DNA of 64,000 bases from Catellatospora methionotrophica (GTDB lineage: Bacteria > Actinomycetota > Actinomycetes > Mycobacteriales > Micromonosporaceae), in NCBI RefSeq assembly GCF_011297335.1, contig NZ_JAAOTJ010000005.1, positions 186,001-250,000 on the forward strand. The letters run 5' to 3'. Within the stretch, counting starts at the first letter, position 1; each line of letters starts with the position of its first letter. Shown piece after piece: positions 1-4,409 of the stretch. The notes under the pieces are model-generated. The model did not search any database. It was not told where the DNA came from and was given only the letters and a program-made list of their open reading frames with translations. A program made the position numbers and the translations under genes.

Positions 1-450
1 CGTCATGTCGTCGCCGCTGTTGAGGCAGAGGAACGGGACCTTGCTGGCCTCGGCCACCGCGATGATCGCGCGGGCGGTCTCGACGGTCACGCCGCCGATG
101 ATCGCGCAGACCTTGTCCTGCTCGATGAGGTCTTTGGCCTGCTGCATCGCGGTCGCGGCGGTGCCGCCGTTGTCCTTGAACACCAGCCGGATGTAGAGGC
201 GGCCCTCACCGTACGGGATGCCGACCGAGTTGATCTCGTCAGCGCCGACCTTCAGCGCCTGCTCCTGCAGCTTGCCGAGGGTCGAACCGGGGCCGGTGAG
301 CTCCAGGTTGACGCCGAGCACGAGTTCCCCGGTGGCGCCTGCGGCGGTCGCGTCGGGCTCGGAGCAGGCGGCCAGCAGCGCCGTGGCGGCCAGTCCGAGT
401 CCGCCGGCGAGGGCGCTGCGTCGGGTCAGTCCACCTGTGGCGCTGTTCAT
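1..450 (-). CDS. Substrate-binding lipoprotein of an ABC transporter (partial)
   Basis: Only the first 150 codons are present; the gene runs off the left edge. The start is ATG at 450, with GGAAAGG about 7 bases upstream. Residues 1-29 form an export signal with a twin arginine (LTRRSALAGG), a hydrophobic stretch and a lipobox ending LLAAC, so the mature protein is probably a lipid-anchored, possibly Tat-exported binding protein. The mature part begins ELVLGVNLELTGPGSTLGK and continues with IIGGVTVETARAI, the pattern of type 1 periplasmic-binding folds of the branched-chain amino-acid (LivK) kind. The ligand cannot be told, and no permease or ATPase gene lies on the side that is visible. It could also be a ligand receptor without a dedicated transporter. 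Confidence 0.8.
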   Translation of the reverse strand, partial: MNSATGGLTRRSALAGGLGLAATALLAACSEPDATAAGATGELVLGVNLELTGPGSTLGKLQEQALKVGADEINSVGIPYGEGRLYIRLVFKDNGGTAATAMQQAKDLIEQDKVCAIIGGVTVETARAIIAVAEASKVPFLCLNSGDDMT

Positions 451-708: not shown

Positions 709-3525
709 TCAGCGGTAGTTGGCCGCCCGGTAGTTGTAGTCGTCCCGGTCGTCGCGGGCGTCCTGCTCGCGGCTGAAGTCCCAGCCGTTGGCCGACTCCC
801 GGCCCGGCCGTCCGCCGACGGCGAAGCCGCCCTGGCCGGGCGCGCCGCCGAGTTCCTGGTTGCCACGCCGCCAGCCGCGGAAGTAGTTGCTGGTGTGCGC
901 GGCGATGCCGGCGGCGTCGCGGACTATGCGCAGCGGGCGCTCCTCGCGCTCCGGCGTGGAGCCGGGCACCAGGTTCGCCGCAGGAACGCGCCGGGGCAGG
1001 CCCGCGGTGGTGTCGTTGCCGACCTGCGGACGGGCCGCCTGCTCGGCGGCGCGCCAGCCGCTGTCCATGGTCGAGTTCCAGGTGGTCTCGGCGCTGGTGT
1101 CCGGCCCGCTGAACCAGGCCGAGGAGACCGACGCGAAGATCAGCAGGTCGTCGTCCTCGCCCTCGGCCGGGCTGGAGGCCCGCTCGGTGCGTCGCGGCTT
1201 GGGCCGGGCGCCGGTCAGCGCGCTGTCGTCGACCAGGCGCAGCGGCGGCTCGTCGCGGCCACCGCGGCCGTTGCGGCGCGCGGGCTCGTCGGCCAGGCGC
1301 AGCGACGGGGACTCCGGCAGCACCAGATCGTCGTCGAGCCACGGCGGCGTGATGCGGCCGTCGGTGGGGCGGGCGGTCTCGTCCGGCTCGGGGTTCAGCG
1401 GCCAGTTGGCGCGGGAACCCGCGGGCGCGGTCGGCTGCTGCGGCGGCAGACCCAGCGGGTCGGCCGGCATCCGGGTGATGTCGGTTGGCACGTCAGTCGC
1501 GGACGGCGCGTTGAAACGGGGCCGCTCACCGGTGTCGCGCAGATTGTCGTGCTGGAAGCCGCTACGGGCCCGCTCGGCGAGCTCGTTGGCCAGCCGCTCG
1601 GCAGCCGACGGCTGGTAGCCGCCACGCGGCGCGCGGTTGTCGAGGTCACGAGGGCGATCCGCGCCGGGCTGCTGGTAACCACCACGGGGGGCGCGGTCGT
1701 CGAGCGGCTCGGGCTGCTGGAAACCGCCGCGCGGGGCGCGGTCGTCGAGCGGCTCGGGCTGCTGGAAACCACGGGGAGCGCGGTCGTCCAGCGGCTCGGG
1801 CTGCTGGAAACCGCCGCGCGGGGCGCGATCGTCGACCTGCTCAGGCTGCTGGAAACCGCCGCGCGGGGCGCGATCGTCGAGCGGCTCGGGCTGCTGGAAA
1901 CCGCCGCGCGGGGCGCGGTCGTCGAGCGGCTCGGGCTGCTGGTAGCCGCCGCGCGGGGCGCGGGCGTCCCGGCCGTTCAGCAGTTCGGCGGCGAAGGGCT
2001 GGTACCCCCGCGGCGCGTCACCGGCCGGTTCGGCGGGCTGCTGGTAGCCCTGCGGCGCGCGGTCGGCCGGATCGGCGGCGGGCTGCTCGTAACCCAACTG
2101 GCCCTGCTCGGCCGACTCGTCGGGCAGGTCCGCCGACGGGGCCTGGTTGAAGCCTCGGGCGGCGCGCTCGCTGCTGATGGCCGCGTTGGTCAGGGTGGGC
2201 ACGAACGGCTTGTTCGCGTCCGCAGGGGCCCGCGAGGCGCGCTGGGCCGGGATGGGCGCCTGACGCGGCGGGATCGGGGTGGGCATCTGCCGGGTGGGCG
2301 CGGCGGGCGCCTCCTGGCGCGCTGCTGCGGGCATGGCGACCATCGGGGTGCCCGTGATCGGGGTCGGCTCGAAACCGGGCGGCACGGGCGGCGTGGAGGG
2401 CGCCCACGCGGGCCGGTCGACCGGCGGCGGCGCGAGCGGCGTGCTCGACACCGGCTCGGGCGCGGTCGGCGGGGCCTGCACGGGGCGCGGCTGCGTCGGT
2501 GCGGCGTTCACGGCGGTCGGCTGCACCCGGCGGCGCGCGCCGGTGGCGGCGGCCATCGCGGGCGGCGCGGAGGTGACCGGGACGCCGGTTCGCCGCGCGG
2601 GCTGGGCAGGGGCCGCGACCGGCGGCGGGGCCATCCGGTCGGCGAGGGTGTCGATGAGGGCGGCGCTGGCGGCGTCGGAGGAGCGCACGGCGGCGACGCT
2701 GTGCCGCACGGACTCCGCGACGGCGGCGGTCAGCTGCTTGCCCACGCCGTTGCGGCGGGGCGTCTCGGCGATCGCGACGCGCAGCGCGGTGACCGCCTCC
2801 AGGGCGGTGCCGCTGTCGCAGACGCCGTCGGCGACCAGGCGCGCGGCGACGGTCTCGGCGGTGGCTCCGTTGTCGCGGTTGCGGGCGCCGGACTGCCCGG
2901 CCAGCATGCCGGGCTCGGGCAGGGCTTCGAGCACGGCCAGGGCGACGGGCGCGGCAGGGTCGGGATAGGCGCGCAGGGCGGCCGGGTACAGCTCGCGCAG
3001 CACCTCGCGCAGGGCCACGGCGGCGGCGTGCCGACCGACGGCCAGCGCCGCGTGGGCGGCCAGCACCGGCTTGAAGGCGACGAACTCGCGGGGCGCGGGA
3101 CCGACCATGGCGGACAGTGCCCCGGCCTGCAGGGCACGGGCGAGGCCGACGGCACGGCGCTCGTCGGGGGAGGCGTTGGCCTCATCGAGGGACTCGTCGT
3201 CGGCGAACCGGTCGGCGAAGTCGTCGGCGGACTCGTCATCGGTGTACGCGATGGCCCGTCCCGCGGCGGCGAGCAGCGAGATGACCTGCTGGTCGTCACT
3301 GTCCGCGGCCACCGTGACCATCGTCGAGCCGCCGAACCTCTCCGCCAGCAGCGACGTCACCAGCGCGTAGCCGGCGGGATCGTCGTTGATGACGCAGAAC
3401 TCCAGCAGCCTGCCGGAGTCGTCGACAACGGCGACGGTCAGCCGGTTGACGGCCGCCGCAAGTTCCCCCGCGTCGACCTCCGGAGCTGTCGACGCGATAC
3501 CGCAGTACACCCGCACGAGCGCCAC
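709..3525 (-). CDS. Repeat-tailed protein with a degenerate IS110-transposase-like N-terminal domain
   Basis: This is a 938-residue protein with a two-part structure. Residues 1 to about 215 resemble the DEDD (RuvC-like) N-terminus and following helical segment of IS110-family transposases: a GI-x-S strand, then AVVDDSGRLLEF, a second strand around residue 70, and a helical tract ending LAVLEALPEPGMLAG. The first catalytic Asp (GIDVxK in IS110) is replaced (CGIAST), so strand-cutting activity is unlikely. Residues about 300-680 are Pro/Gln/Arg-rich and contain seven 14- to 15-residue repeats (consensus DDRAPRGGFQQPEPL). The rest is acidic and disordered-looking. No inverted repeats flank it and it sits in an ordinary leftward gene series, so I read it as a domesticated host gene. 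Function unknown; the family assignment is by eye. Confidence 0.75.
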   Translation of the reverse strand: MALVRVYCGIASTAPEVDAGELAAAVNRLTVAVVDDSGRLLEFCVINDDPAGYALVTSLLAERFGGSTMVTVAADSDDQQVISLLAAAGRAIAYTDDESADDFADRFADDESLDEANASPDERRAVGLARALQAGALSAMVGPAPREFVAFKPVLAAHAALAVGRHAAAVALREVLRELYPAALRAYPDPAAPVALAVLEALPEPGMLAGQSGARNRDNGATAETVAARLVADGVCDSGTALEAVTALRVAIAETPRRNGVGKQLTAAVAESVRHSVAAVRSSDAASAALIDTLADRMAPPPVAAPAQPARRTGVPVTSAPPAMAAATGARRRVQPTAVNAAPTQPRPVQAPPTAPEPVSSTPLAPPPVDRPAWAPSTPPVPPGFEPTPITGTPMVAMPAAARQEAPAAPTRQMPTPIPPRQAPIPAQRASRAPADANKPFVPTLTNAAISSERAARGFNQAPSADLPDESAEQGQLGYEQPAADPADRAPQGYQQPAEPAGDAPRGYQPFAAELLNGRDARAPRGGYQQPEPLDDRAPRGGFQQPEPLDDRAPRGGFQQPEQVDDRAPRGGFQQPEPLDDRAPRGFQQPEPLDDRAPRGGFQQPEPLDDRAPRGGYQQPGADRPRDLDNRAPRGGYQPSAAERLANELAERARSGFQHDNLRDTGERPRFNAPSATDVPTDITRMPADPLGLPPQQPTAPAGSRANWPLNPEPDETARPTDGRITPPWLDDDLVLPESPSLRLADEPARRNGRGGRDEPPLRLVDDSALTGARPKPRRTERASSPAEGEDDDLLIFASVSSAWFSGPDTSAETTWNSTMDSGWRAAEQAARPQVGNDTTAGLPRRVPAANLVPGSTPEREERPLRIVRDAAGIAAHTSNYFRGWRRGNQELGGAPGQGGFAVGGRPGRESANGWDFSREQDARDDRDDYNYRAANYR
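1669..1980 (-). repeat. 45-bp tandem repeat array within a coding region
   Basis: Seven tandem units starting at 1669, 1714, 1759, 1801, 1846, 1891 and 1936 encode the DDRAPRGGFQQPEPL repeats. Six are 45 bp; the unit at 1759 is 42 bp and encodes one glycine fewer. All units keep the reading frame. The units at 1714 and 1891 are identical over their whole length, which suggests recent duplication or gene conversion within the array. Confidence 0.9.
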
Positions 3526-3584: not shown

Positions 3585-4409
3585 TCAGTCGCGCCAGTCC
3601 ACAGCGCCAGAGATCTTGCCAATAACCGAACGCCAGCCGATTGATGCCTGCTCTGCCCCGATTTTCTTCAGCTTTCGCTTAGCGAAGAAAGCACCCATGC
3701 CGCCCTCTTCCGAGGCGCGCAGCGCATCGTCGAGGTCGTCGAGGGGGGAGCCGGGGGAGAGCGCCACCATGACGGGCTTAAGCCGCAGAGCGTAGCTCAC
3801 ATCCCTGGCAAACTCCCCAGCGCGCAGGACCAGCTCGGCGTCCCAGGCGTCCGGGCCGCCGCGCAGGTTCTCCACGACGAGGTCCAGTTCGTACGCGTCG
3901 TCCTCGCCCGCGACCACGTCGGTGGCCTTGACCGACTTCGCCAGCTTCGACCAGCCTTCGAGCTGCTTGAGGTCGTGCGGCGCGCCGGAGCGCACGAAGT
4001 CCGCCAGGCCCTTGGCCGACAGGAACAGCAGCAGGCGGCCCTTGTGCGAGAGGAACATGGGCACCTCCTCGTCGGAGACGACGGCTTCGTCCTCGTCGTC
4101 CTCCGCCTCGGCGTCCTCGTCGGCCTCGACCGCGCGCTCGGCCACCTCGTCCTCGGCGGGACCGGCGGCGACCTCGTCCAAGGCCTCCTTGGTCCACTGG
4201 AACTCGGGCAGCTCCTCCTCATCGGCGACGCCCATCGGGCGGCCGGTGCGACCGGCGAAGATCGCGTCGTCGTCCTCGCGGTCGGCGATGTCGGTCGGCG
4301 TCAGCTCACTCGCGGGACGGTAAGCCCGCAGCGTCAGTCCGACCTTGCCGCCGGGCAGGGCTACCTCGACCGGCGAGACCTGGTACTCGTCCCAGAGCGT
4401 GCTTGCCAC
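3585..4409 (-). CDS. Conserved acidic protein of unknown function
   Basis: A 274-residue soluble protein with ATG at 4409. It begins MASTLWDEYQVSPVEVALPGG and has a folded-looking N-terminal part (to about 75), a strongly acidic linker (about 80-115, rich in Glu and Asp), and a folded C-terminal part with FLSHKGRLLLFLSAKGLADF and a lysine-rich patch near residue 245 (FFAKRKLKKIG). There is no signal peptide or membrane segment. I do not recognise a named domain. It lies between cydC (71-base gap) and the repeat-tailed protein (59-base gap), all leftward, but the gaps are too large to assume one operon. Confidence 0.8.
   Translation of the reverse strand: MASTLWDEYQVSPVEVALPGGKVGLTLRAYRPASELTPTDIADREDDDAIFAGRTGRPMGVADEEELPEFQWTKEALDEVAAGPAEDEVAERAVEADEDAEAEDDEDEAVVSDEEVPMFLSHKGRLLLFLSAKGLADFVRSGAPHDLKQLEGWSKLAKSVKATDVVAGEDDAYELDLVVENLRGGPDAWDAELVLRAGEFARDVSYALRLKPVMVALSPGSPLDDLDDALRASEEGGMGAFFAKRKLKKIGAEQASIGWRSVIGKISGAVDWRD

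Follow-up and report, generated by a model that had tools for sequence, protein, structure and literature searches.

A transposase-derived protein with a conservon-kinase tail in Micromonosporaceae, predicted to be catalytically dead: a candidate adapter for roadblock GTPase regulators

Is a transposase-like gene that is found at one place in a whole bacterial family still an element or already a host gene, and what could the host use it for? The question is raised by an open reading frame at 709-3525 on the reverse strand of a 64,000-nucleotide stretch of Catellatospora methionotrophica (contig NZ_JAAOTJ010000005.1, positions 186,001 to 250,000; hereafter the window), which starts at GTG and encodes a protein of 938 residues, called protein X below. 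Its first 297 residues descend from an IS110 transposase, and its tail shares ancestry with the C-terminal end of the conservon histidine kinase CvnA, conservons being actinobacterial G-protein systems (AGPS); the latter relationship is new here. With a probability of roughly 0.55, judged from sequence and gene order, X would be a kinase-free, IS110-derived CvnA-like adapter docking a roadblock GTPase regulator. The parts of the gene are as follows.

709-3525, reverse strand: protein X, a domesticated IS110-derived protein of 938 amino acids (aa) (open reading frame; family-wide matches).
3103-3525, reverse strand: residues 1-141, RuvC/RNase H-like (IS110 DEDD) domain with its catalytic set lost (hhalign, AlphaFold2 model, active-site table).
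2626-3102, reverse strand: residues 142-300, IS110 coiled-coil part with Nop5-like helices (hhalign match to residue 297; Nop chains).
1159-2625, reverse strand: Pro/Gln-rich linker, fast evolving, presumably disordered as read from the sequence and not by a predictor (sequence; nonsynonymous divergence, dN).
1665-1968, reverse strand: tandem array of 45-bp units of the DDRAPRGGFQQPEPL type, 6.8 copies (Tandem Repeats Finder; unconserved in relatives).
800-1158, reverse strand: conserved C-terminal region, DDDLLIF...SAWF...GLPRRVPAANLVPG... (alignment of 28 family tails).
853-1089, reverse strand: CvnA-type C-terminal module, common to conservon histidine kinases (hhalign; single-sequence match in the same genome).

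Regarding the head, the Pfam domain DEDD_Tnp_IS110 matches residues 30-181 only weakly, with an expectation value (E) of 0.072 for the full-length protein and 0.006 for residues 1-311, both scores falling under the curated cut-off, and an NCBIfam scan of X gave no match. The doubt left by this weak score is removed by a profile-profile alignment (hhalign) of 22 X family members with eight IS110 proteins, which gives E 3.6e-20 over 260 columns and extends the homology to about residue 297. The preliminary description of this gene, made from the DNA letters alone, had seen the DEDD N-terminus and helical segment of IS110 in the first ~215 residues; this is borne out, with a longer reach. An AlphaFold2 model of the head built from 38 sequences has a predicted local distance difference test (pLDDT) score of 83.7, the other four models scoring 60.5-69.6, so that the structural matches rest on one good model out of five. 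Foldseek against the PDB returned IS621 and ISCro4 as best matches (E 1.6e-3 and 2.3e-3) and nothing at E <= 0.001, while in a second structure comparison ISCro4 (Z 13.0 over 117 residues, 2.8 Å) and IS621 (Z 12.6) outranked Tex (Z 11.5) and RuvC (Z 10.6). The fold comparison that the preliminary description had proposed as a check thus pointed to IS110 transposases and not to an unrelated domain. Residues 142-300 also resemble the Nop5 and Nop56/58 chains (Z 9.2-9.9), a middling range that arises by chance for helical bundles. With sequence profile A7, ISCro4 and IS621 are reached among the PDB sequences at E 0.3-0.4 only. The second transposase domain of IS110, Transposase_20, is found in 7/7 IS110-type proteins scanned with Pfam, whereas X has no match to it at E <= 1. 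Altogether, the derivation of residues 1-297 from the RuvC (DEDD) domain and coiled coil of an IS110 transposase is well supported.

The active site has not been kept. Aligned with IS110 proteins, the window X has A-D-D-R at the four D-E-D-D positions, the first catalytic Asp being replaced by Ala11 (GIAST) where the IS110 rows read GxDW, as had been described before. The first Asp is kept in none of 31 rows of the X family; the second position is Glu in two and Asp in 26, the third Asp is present in four and the fourth in two, with the third and fourth positions less sure as they lie in a gappy stretch of the alignment. No row has all four; the 31 include two paralogues, one of which (L061) aligns poorly. 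DEDD is intact in nine of ten IS110 rows, and the remaining one is gapped at the first Asp. X is thus predicted to be catalytically dead, the DEDD set having been lost across the family.

The gene is a fixture of the Micromonosporaceae, a family of soil bacteria. A single-sequence search matched X in 147 of the 150 family genomes, and a profile matched it in 148, adding G046; the two genomes left are assemblies of about 440 and 780 contigs. When the very weak matches of G013, G097 and G066 were rechecked together with G046, the IS110-derived part and the tail were found in one frame (494-611 aa) in 4/4, and these matches are therefore X and not IS110. Most family genomes have a single match, and the window genome has one copy of X. 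Extra matches in a few genomes were examined in part (those of G091 and G093 were left out), and three of them, G055 C133, G002 C240 and G136 C1:8672557, are IS110. In six Catellatospora comparisons, residues 1-300 show dN of 0.012-0.093 against synonymous divergence (dS) of 0.196-0.446, with dN of the linker 3-6 times that of residues 1-300; by these rates, the head is under purifying selection. Family-wide presence, one match in most genomes and dN far below dS make X a host gene rather than an element. Nor does it behave as a mobile IS110, having one copy in its genome and an unchanged upstream neighbour across 27 genera. IS110 elements are not known to have conspicuous ends, so this conserved gene order is better evidence of immobility than the absence of transposon ends that had been pointed out earlier, for which no search was made here. 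Domestication, as first suggested, is supported by profile homology, fold, loss of DEDD, presence in 148/150 genomes, gene order and purifying selection, and orthologues do sit at the same locus (27 genera) with the same degeneration, none of the 31 rows having an intact DEDD.

Outside the family, no X homologue was found with profile A7 among 296 genomes of the phylum (two of them family members). Matches in 19 of the other 294 lie in frames of 101-440 aa, that is of IS110 size or smaller, with one exception of 576 aa, and all four that were scanned with Pfam are IS110 transposases. The exception, L235:127-1824(-) from a genome of another family, has an IS110-like N-terminus with the first Asp kept and continues without a frame break into the antisense strand of a glycine-rich repeat gene, which we take to be of the PE_PGRS type. 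Within the family, L060:7519-9021 and L061:6949-8346 are additional copies of X that have diverged but still carry a tail; neither the SatS-like gene nor the conservon described below lies within the 16 kb taken around them. In genome G031 (L058:5928-8849), X is divided into two frames of 431 and 542 aa, either a broken gene or a sequencing error.

The link with signalling comes from the other end of the protein. The last ~100 residues of X are the conserved part of its tail in an alignment of 28 family tails. Profile-profile alignment of X tails with CvnA tails gives E 7.3e-19 over 76 columns (hhalign), and the best blastp match of an X tail to the C-terminus of the NIT-HAMP-HATPase histidine kinases encoded nearby reaches E 4.9e-11. 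In the window genome, the X tail alone has as its best non-self match (E 4e-7; the next, 0.011) the CvnA at C32:35754, a NIT-HAMP-HATPase protein that belongs to the orthologous conservon. These three comparisons are the independent evidence of kinship, since the scores of profile A6, built from X and CvnA tails together, are not. The module shared by CvnA and X reads W...D.GW..A...GLP+R.P...LVPG...R....RG..RGR, and the GLP-R-R-P-LVPG criterion used for it was defined from the sequences seen here and not from a published definition. While NIT, HAMP and HATPase_c are all found by Pfam in the neighbouring CvnA of L065, a Pfam scan of X found no NIT, HAMP or HATPase domain. That the X tail is homologous to the CvnA C-terminal tail is well supported; the preliminary description had missed both this module and the neighbouring conservon, from which the context of X derives.

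The module is not a general feature of CvnA. At E <= 0.01, A6 has matches in 22 of 149 genomes of the phylum, the weak ones among them probably being due to chance. The six matched regions that were taken contain a roadblock frame in 6/6, and six proteins scanned from five of these regions have HATPase_c in 6/6 and NIT in 3/6. In each of four family genomes absent from A6, the profile detects the tail of X and a second tail in a frame of CvnA size (1023-1060 aa), together with weaker matches in frames of 791-900 aa, and in the window genome its other places reach E 0.02 or worse. Given these weak places, and given that a preprint saw no notable conservation of sequence at the C-terminal end of the mycobacterial homologue MfpE (PMC13015309), the tail module is not common to all CvnA. 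As far as the present sequences go, the tail is the mark of certain CvnA proteins, X being exceptional in carrying it without a kinase. A comparison of Catellatospora and orthologue tails missed L098 and L166 of 16, but the profile finds the tail in both.

In a tree of 19 X tails and 13 CvnA tails, which holds no outside rows, each kind forms one clade (100/99), with the paralogue L060 on a long branch. When six outside CvnA tails are added and L060 is removed, the X tails still form one clade (95/88) and the neighbouring CvnA tails do not, an outside row falling among them; in this second tree the outside branches are very long, the bootstrap is unsettled and the outside row L198b was left out. 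The idea that X tails are repeated copies of the tail of the neighbouring CvnA was rejected in view of the separate clades.

The neighbouring genes in the window are the following.

3585-4409, reverse strand: homologue of the export chaperone SatS with a single domain, directly upstream of X with a gap of 59 bp (hmmsearch, Foldseek).
1-450, reverse strand: N-terminal part of a periplasmic-binding-protein gene, downstream of X and running off the window (Pfam).

Gene order was compared in 31 loci from 27 genera chosen for diversity and 80 named loci, mostly from Micromonospora, some genomes being represented in each of the two; nine IS110 or paralogue loci were left out, and 19 of the 111 loci end before the tail, which leaves 92 (31 chosen, 61 named). 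The SatS-like gene lies upstream of X in all 92, and downstream, in convergent orientation, 84 have the conservon genes for CvnB (roadblock), CvnC (DUF742) and CvnD (GTPase), with Robl_LC7 and DUF742 recognised by Pfam in the conservon of L065. The eight without a conservon are L041, L045, L070 and L080 (the window), and L092, L135, L140 and L163, which are at contig ends. The association of X with the conservon is well supported, and it is not obligatory, since the conservon sits apart in the window genome and in L041, L045 and L070; G004, G083 and G012 likewise have the orthologous CvnB at a distance from X. In other Catellatospora the conservon lies beside X, and its place on another contig in the window genome reflects either a rearrangement or an assembly fault. 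Eight CvnB-like roadblock genes and one remote one (nine places) occur in the window genome, which therefore probably has several conservons besides the one on C32.

The gene next after X is a same-strand periplasmic-binding-protein gene in 41 of the 92 loci, the convergent GTPase gene in 37, a same-strand roadblock gene in 13 and none in one. The 13 X-linked roadblock genes represent ten genera; they all belong to the diversity set of 31 loci and none to the 61 named, and Pfam finds Robl_LC7 in 4/4 of those scanned. They stand directly after X as the roadblock gene of the conservon stands directly after cvnA. In a tree they group together as one clade (100/100), separate from 27 neighbouring and seven outside CvnB rows, though the tree is without the other CvnB paralogues of the same genomes, among which a nearer relative is possible; recent copying from the neighbouring cvnB was rejected on account of this clade. 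The periplasmic-binding-protein gene (Peripla_BP_6, E 1.8e-41 on the full frame L079:17252-18541) stands in the window, L065, L066 and L078 where other genera carry the X-linked roadblock gene.

How X could work can be outlined from these data. The RuvC-coiled-coil head would supply dimerisation and a protein-binding surface. By visual inspection, not by a predictor, X shows neither a signal peptide nor a membrane segment, and X would be a soluble protein with a long flexible linker between head and CvnA-type module. Docking of a roadblock/LC7 protein by the tail is proposed because X has the same kind of tail as CvnA and, like cvnA, its gene stands ahead of a roadblock gene in 13 loci; the partner would be X's own roadblock protein in ten of the genera examined and CvnB of the adjacent conservon elsewhere. 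X might thereby recruit, compete for or tune the regulator controlling the GTP state of CvnD, the Ras-like GTPase, and its SatS-like neighbour possibly chaperones it. Komatsu et al., as cited in PMC8510531, found CvnA9 to interact with both CvnB9 and CvnC9, and MfpD, of CvnB type, is a GTPase-activating protein, MfpC, of CvnC type, being a likely guanine nucleotide exchange factor (PMC13343842). If the adapter function is true, an IS110-type recombinase without catalysis has become a fixed part of a signalling pathway throughout a family. In some CvnA proteins the C-terminal tail would then be a candidate docking module, transferable between proteins, for roadblock GTPase regulators, and this would make the step from CvnA to CvnB directly testable. 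In the open-licence literature no earlier report of a domesticated IS110 or of such an X was found, which is weak evidence and holds for that literature only.

Several points weigh against this proposal. An X-linked roadblock gene is not next to X in 79 of the 92 loci, the window included, and the conservon is likewise not beside X in L041, L045 and L070, while the CvnA and CvnB of the window genome lie at the end of contig C32 (G000:C32:34000-37641). The most constant neighbour of X is the SatS-like gene, present even where the conservon is elsewhere. The tail is not conserved in all conservon CvnA, CvnB binding has to our knowledge not been mapped to the tail of CvnA, and roadblock binding by the tail of either X or CvnA is best called putative. 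Finally, the published accessory proteins CvnE and CvnF accompany CvnA proteins without a sensor domain (PMC13343842), and the CvnA concerned here, unlike those partners, carries a NIT sensor domain.

The SatS-like gene itself was also examined. A Pfam scan of its product gave no match, and hmmsearch with its profile against 6drq/6dnm, the C-domain of SatS, gives E 2.2e-12. Its best AlphaFold2 model (pLDDT 74.2; the other four 50.4-59.2) matches the same C-domain with Foldseek at E 3.5e-8. In three genomes from another family of the order, a SatS-like homologue has two such stretches, and X is not present in the 11 kb taken around it.

Among the competing explanations, X could be mainly a client or partner of this SatS-like chaperone, as a protein with a disordered tail connected with the export machinery, its link with the conservon being secondary. 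SatS keeps an export substrate from aggregating (PMC6333443), and the upstream gene in 92/92 loci, also where the conservon is elsewhere, fits such a role; yet X shows neither of the export or membrane features looked for by eye and its tail corresponds to the C-terminal end of a kinase, and we regard this explanation as doubtful. Just as doubtful is that X acts as a decoy or brake, competing with CvnA for the roadblock partner and keeping the GTPase off until CvnA is activated. This would account for homologous tails on two convergently encoded proteins, each kind its own clade across the family, but the 13 loci in which X has a roadblock gene of its own point to a dedicated partner and away from competition. 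That the loci hold ordinary decaying transposase copies, seemingly conserved through repeated insertion, has practically no likelihood left: the weak Pfam match and the degenerate catalytic residues would suit it, and it is refuted by the same upstream neighbour in 27 genera, purifying selection and the conserved tail also speaking against it.

The preliminary description had offered two host roles, scaffold and nucleic-acid binding. The former remains plausible; the latter, for which there is no positive evidence, was not adopted as the main function of X. In a version that we hold to be improbable, X is a nucleic-acid-binding protein composed, as in Nop5 or the inactive Tas proteins, of a dead RuvC domain and a Nop-like coiled coil, which would still bind a guide-like RNA, and is tethered by chance to the signalling complex. 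Nop5 is indeed part of an RNA-protein complex and has a RuvC-like domain without activity, and a tie between IS110 and Nop domains has been published (PMC12045711). The resemblance of the coiled coil to Nop5 and Nop56/58 is in line with this, but could be a chance match of helical bundles, and X has no Transposase_20 match. In net charge, the window X has -16 in its RuvC part and 0 in its coiled coil. The coiled coil ranges from -11 to +2 in the 31 family rows, against +1 to +8 in nine of ten IS110 rows, and thus lacks the positive charge of most IS110 rows, while the RuvC part ranges from -2 to -17 in the family and from -1 to -7 in IS110; in the deep-branching genera of the family, at -2 to -8, it is hardly more acidic than in IS110, a point in favour of RNA binding. 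Overall, charge speaks moderately against nucleic acid as the ligand, and the modelled coiled-coil fold is compatible with binding of a guide RNA. A combined version, with the head binding a descendant of the bridge RNA in the fashion of Nop5 and signalling through tail and roadblock protein to the Ras-like GTPase, appears very improbable; if true, a transposase would have given a bacterial G-protein system an input arm that senses RNA. The kinase-free adapter remains the reading put forward here.

As to the repeats, the preliminary description had given seven of them, of 14-15 residues, a central place in the tail. The array exists, Tandem Repeats Finder reporting a 45-bp unit in 6.8 copies (1665-1968), but its central role does not hold. 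Motifs of the RAPRG type number nine in the window X, 0-4 in six other Catellatospora and none in nine orthologues outside the genus, so that the repeats are, among the sequences compared, a lineage-specific expansion of the window X and some Catellatospora. As a functional part of X they were rejected, being unconserved.

X can finally be set beside the systems whose parts it recalls. With the IS110-family transposases IS621 and ISCro4 it shares, in residues 1-297, the RuvC domain and coiled coil, but it has neither the DEDD set nor the Transposase_20 domain and sits at a fixed chromosomal place, with a linker and a CvnA-type tail instead. With Nop5, in the box C/D small nucleolar ribonucleoprotein scaffold, and with the inactive-RuvC Tas it has in common a dead RuvC-like domain and a coiled coil (PMC12045711), its own coiled coil lacking the net positive charge of most IS110 rows and its tail being of CvnA type. 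The upstream product has the C-domain fold and sequence of SatS, the SecA2-pathway chaperone, with one such domain where SatS is thought to hold two similar ones (PMC6333443), and its gene adjoins X. Like the accessory proteins CvnF (GAF) and CvnE (P450) of AGPS, of which CvnF8 stimulates CvnA8 (PMC13343842), X is an extra protein encoded with a conservon; unlike them, it is encoded convergently and not as a fifth gene, its CvnA keeps the sensor domain, and a Pfam scan found no GAF or P450 domain in it. Compared with CvnA itself, the NIT-HAMP-HATPase kinase of conservons/AGPS, X is without the NIT, HAMP and HATPase domains, but has the same C-terminal module, and its gene, too, sometimes precedes a roadblock gene.

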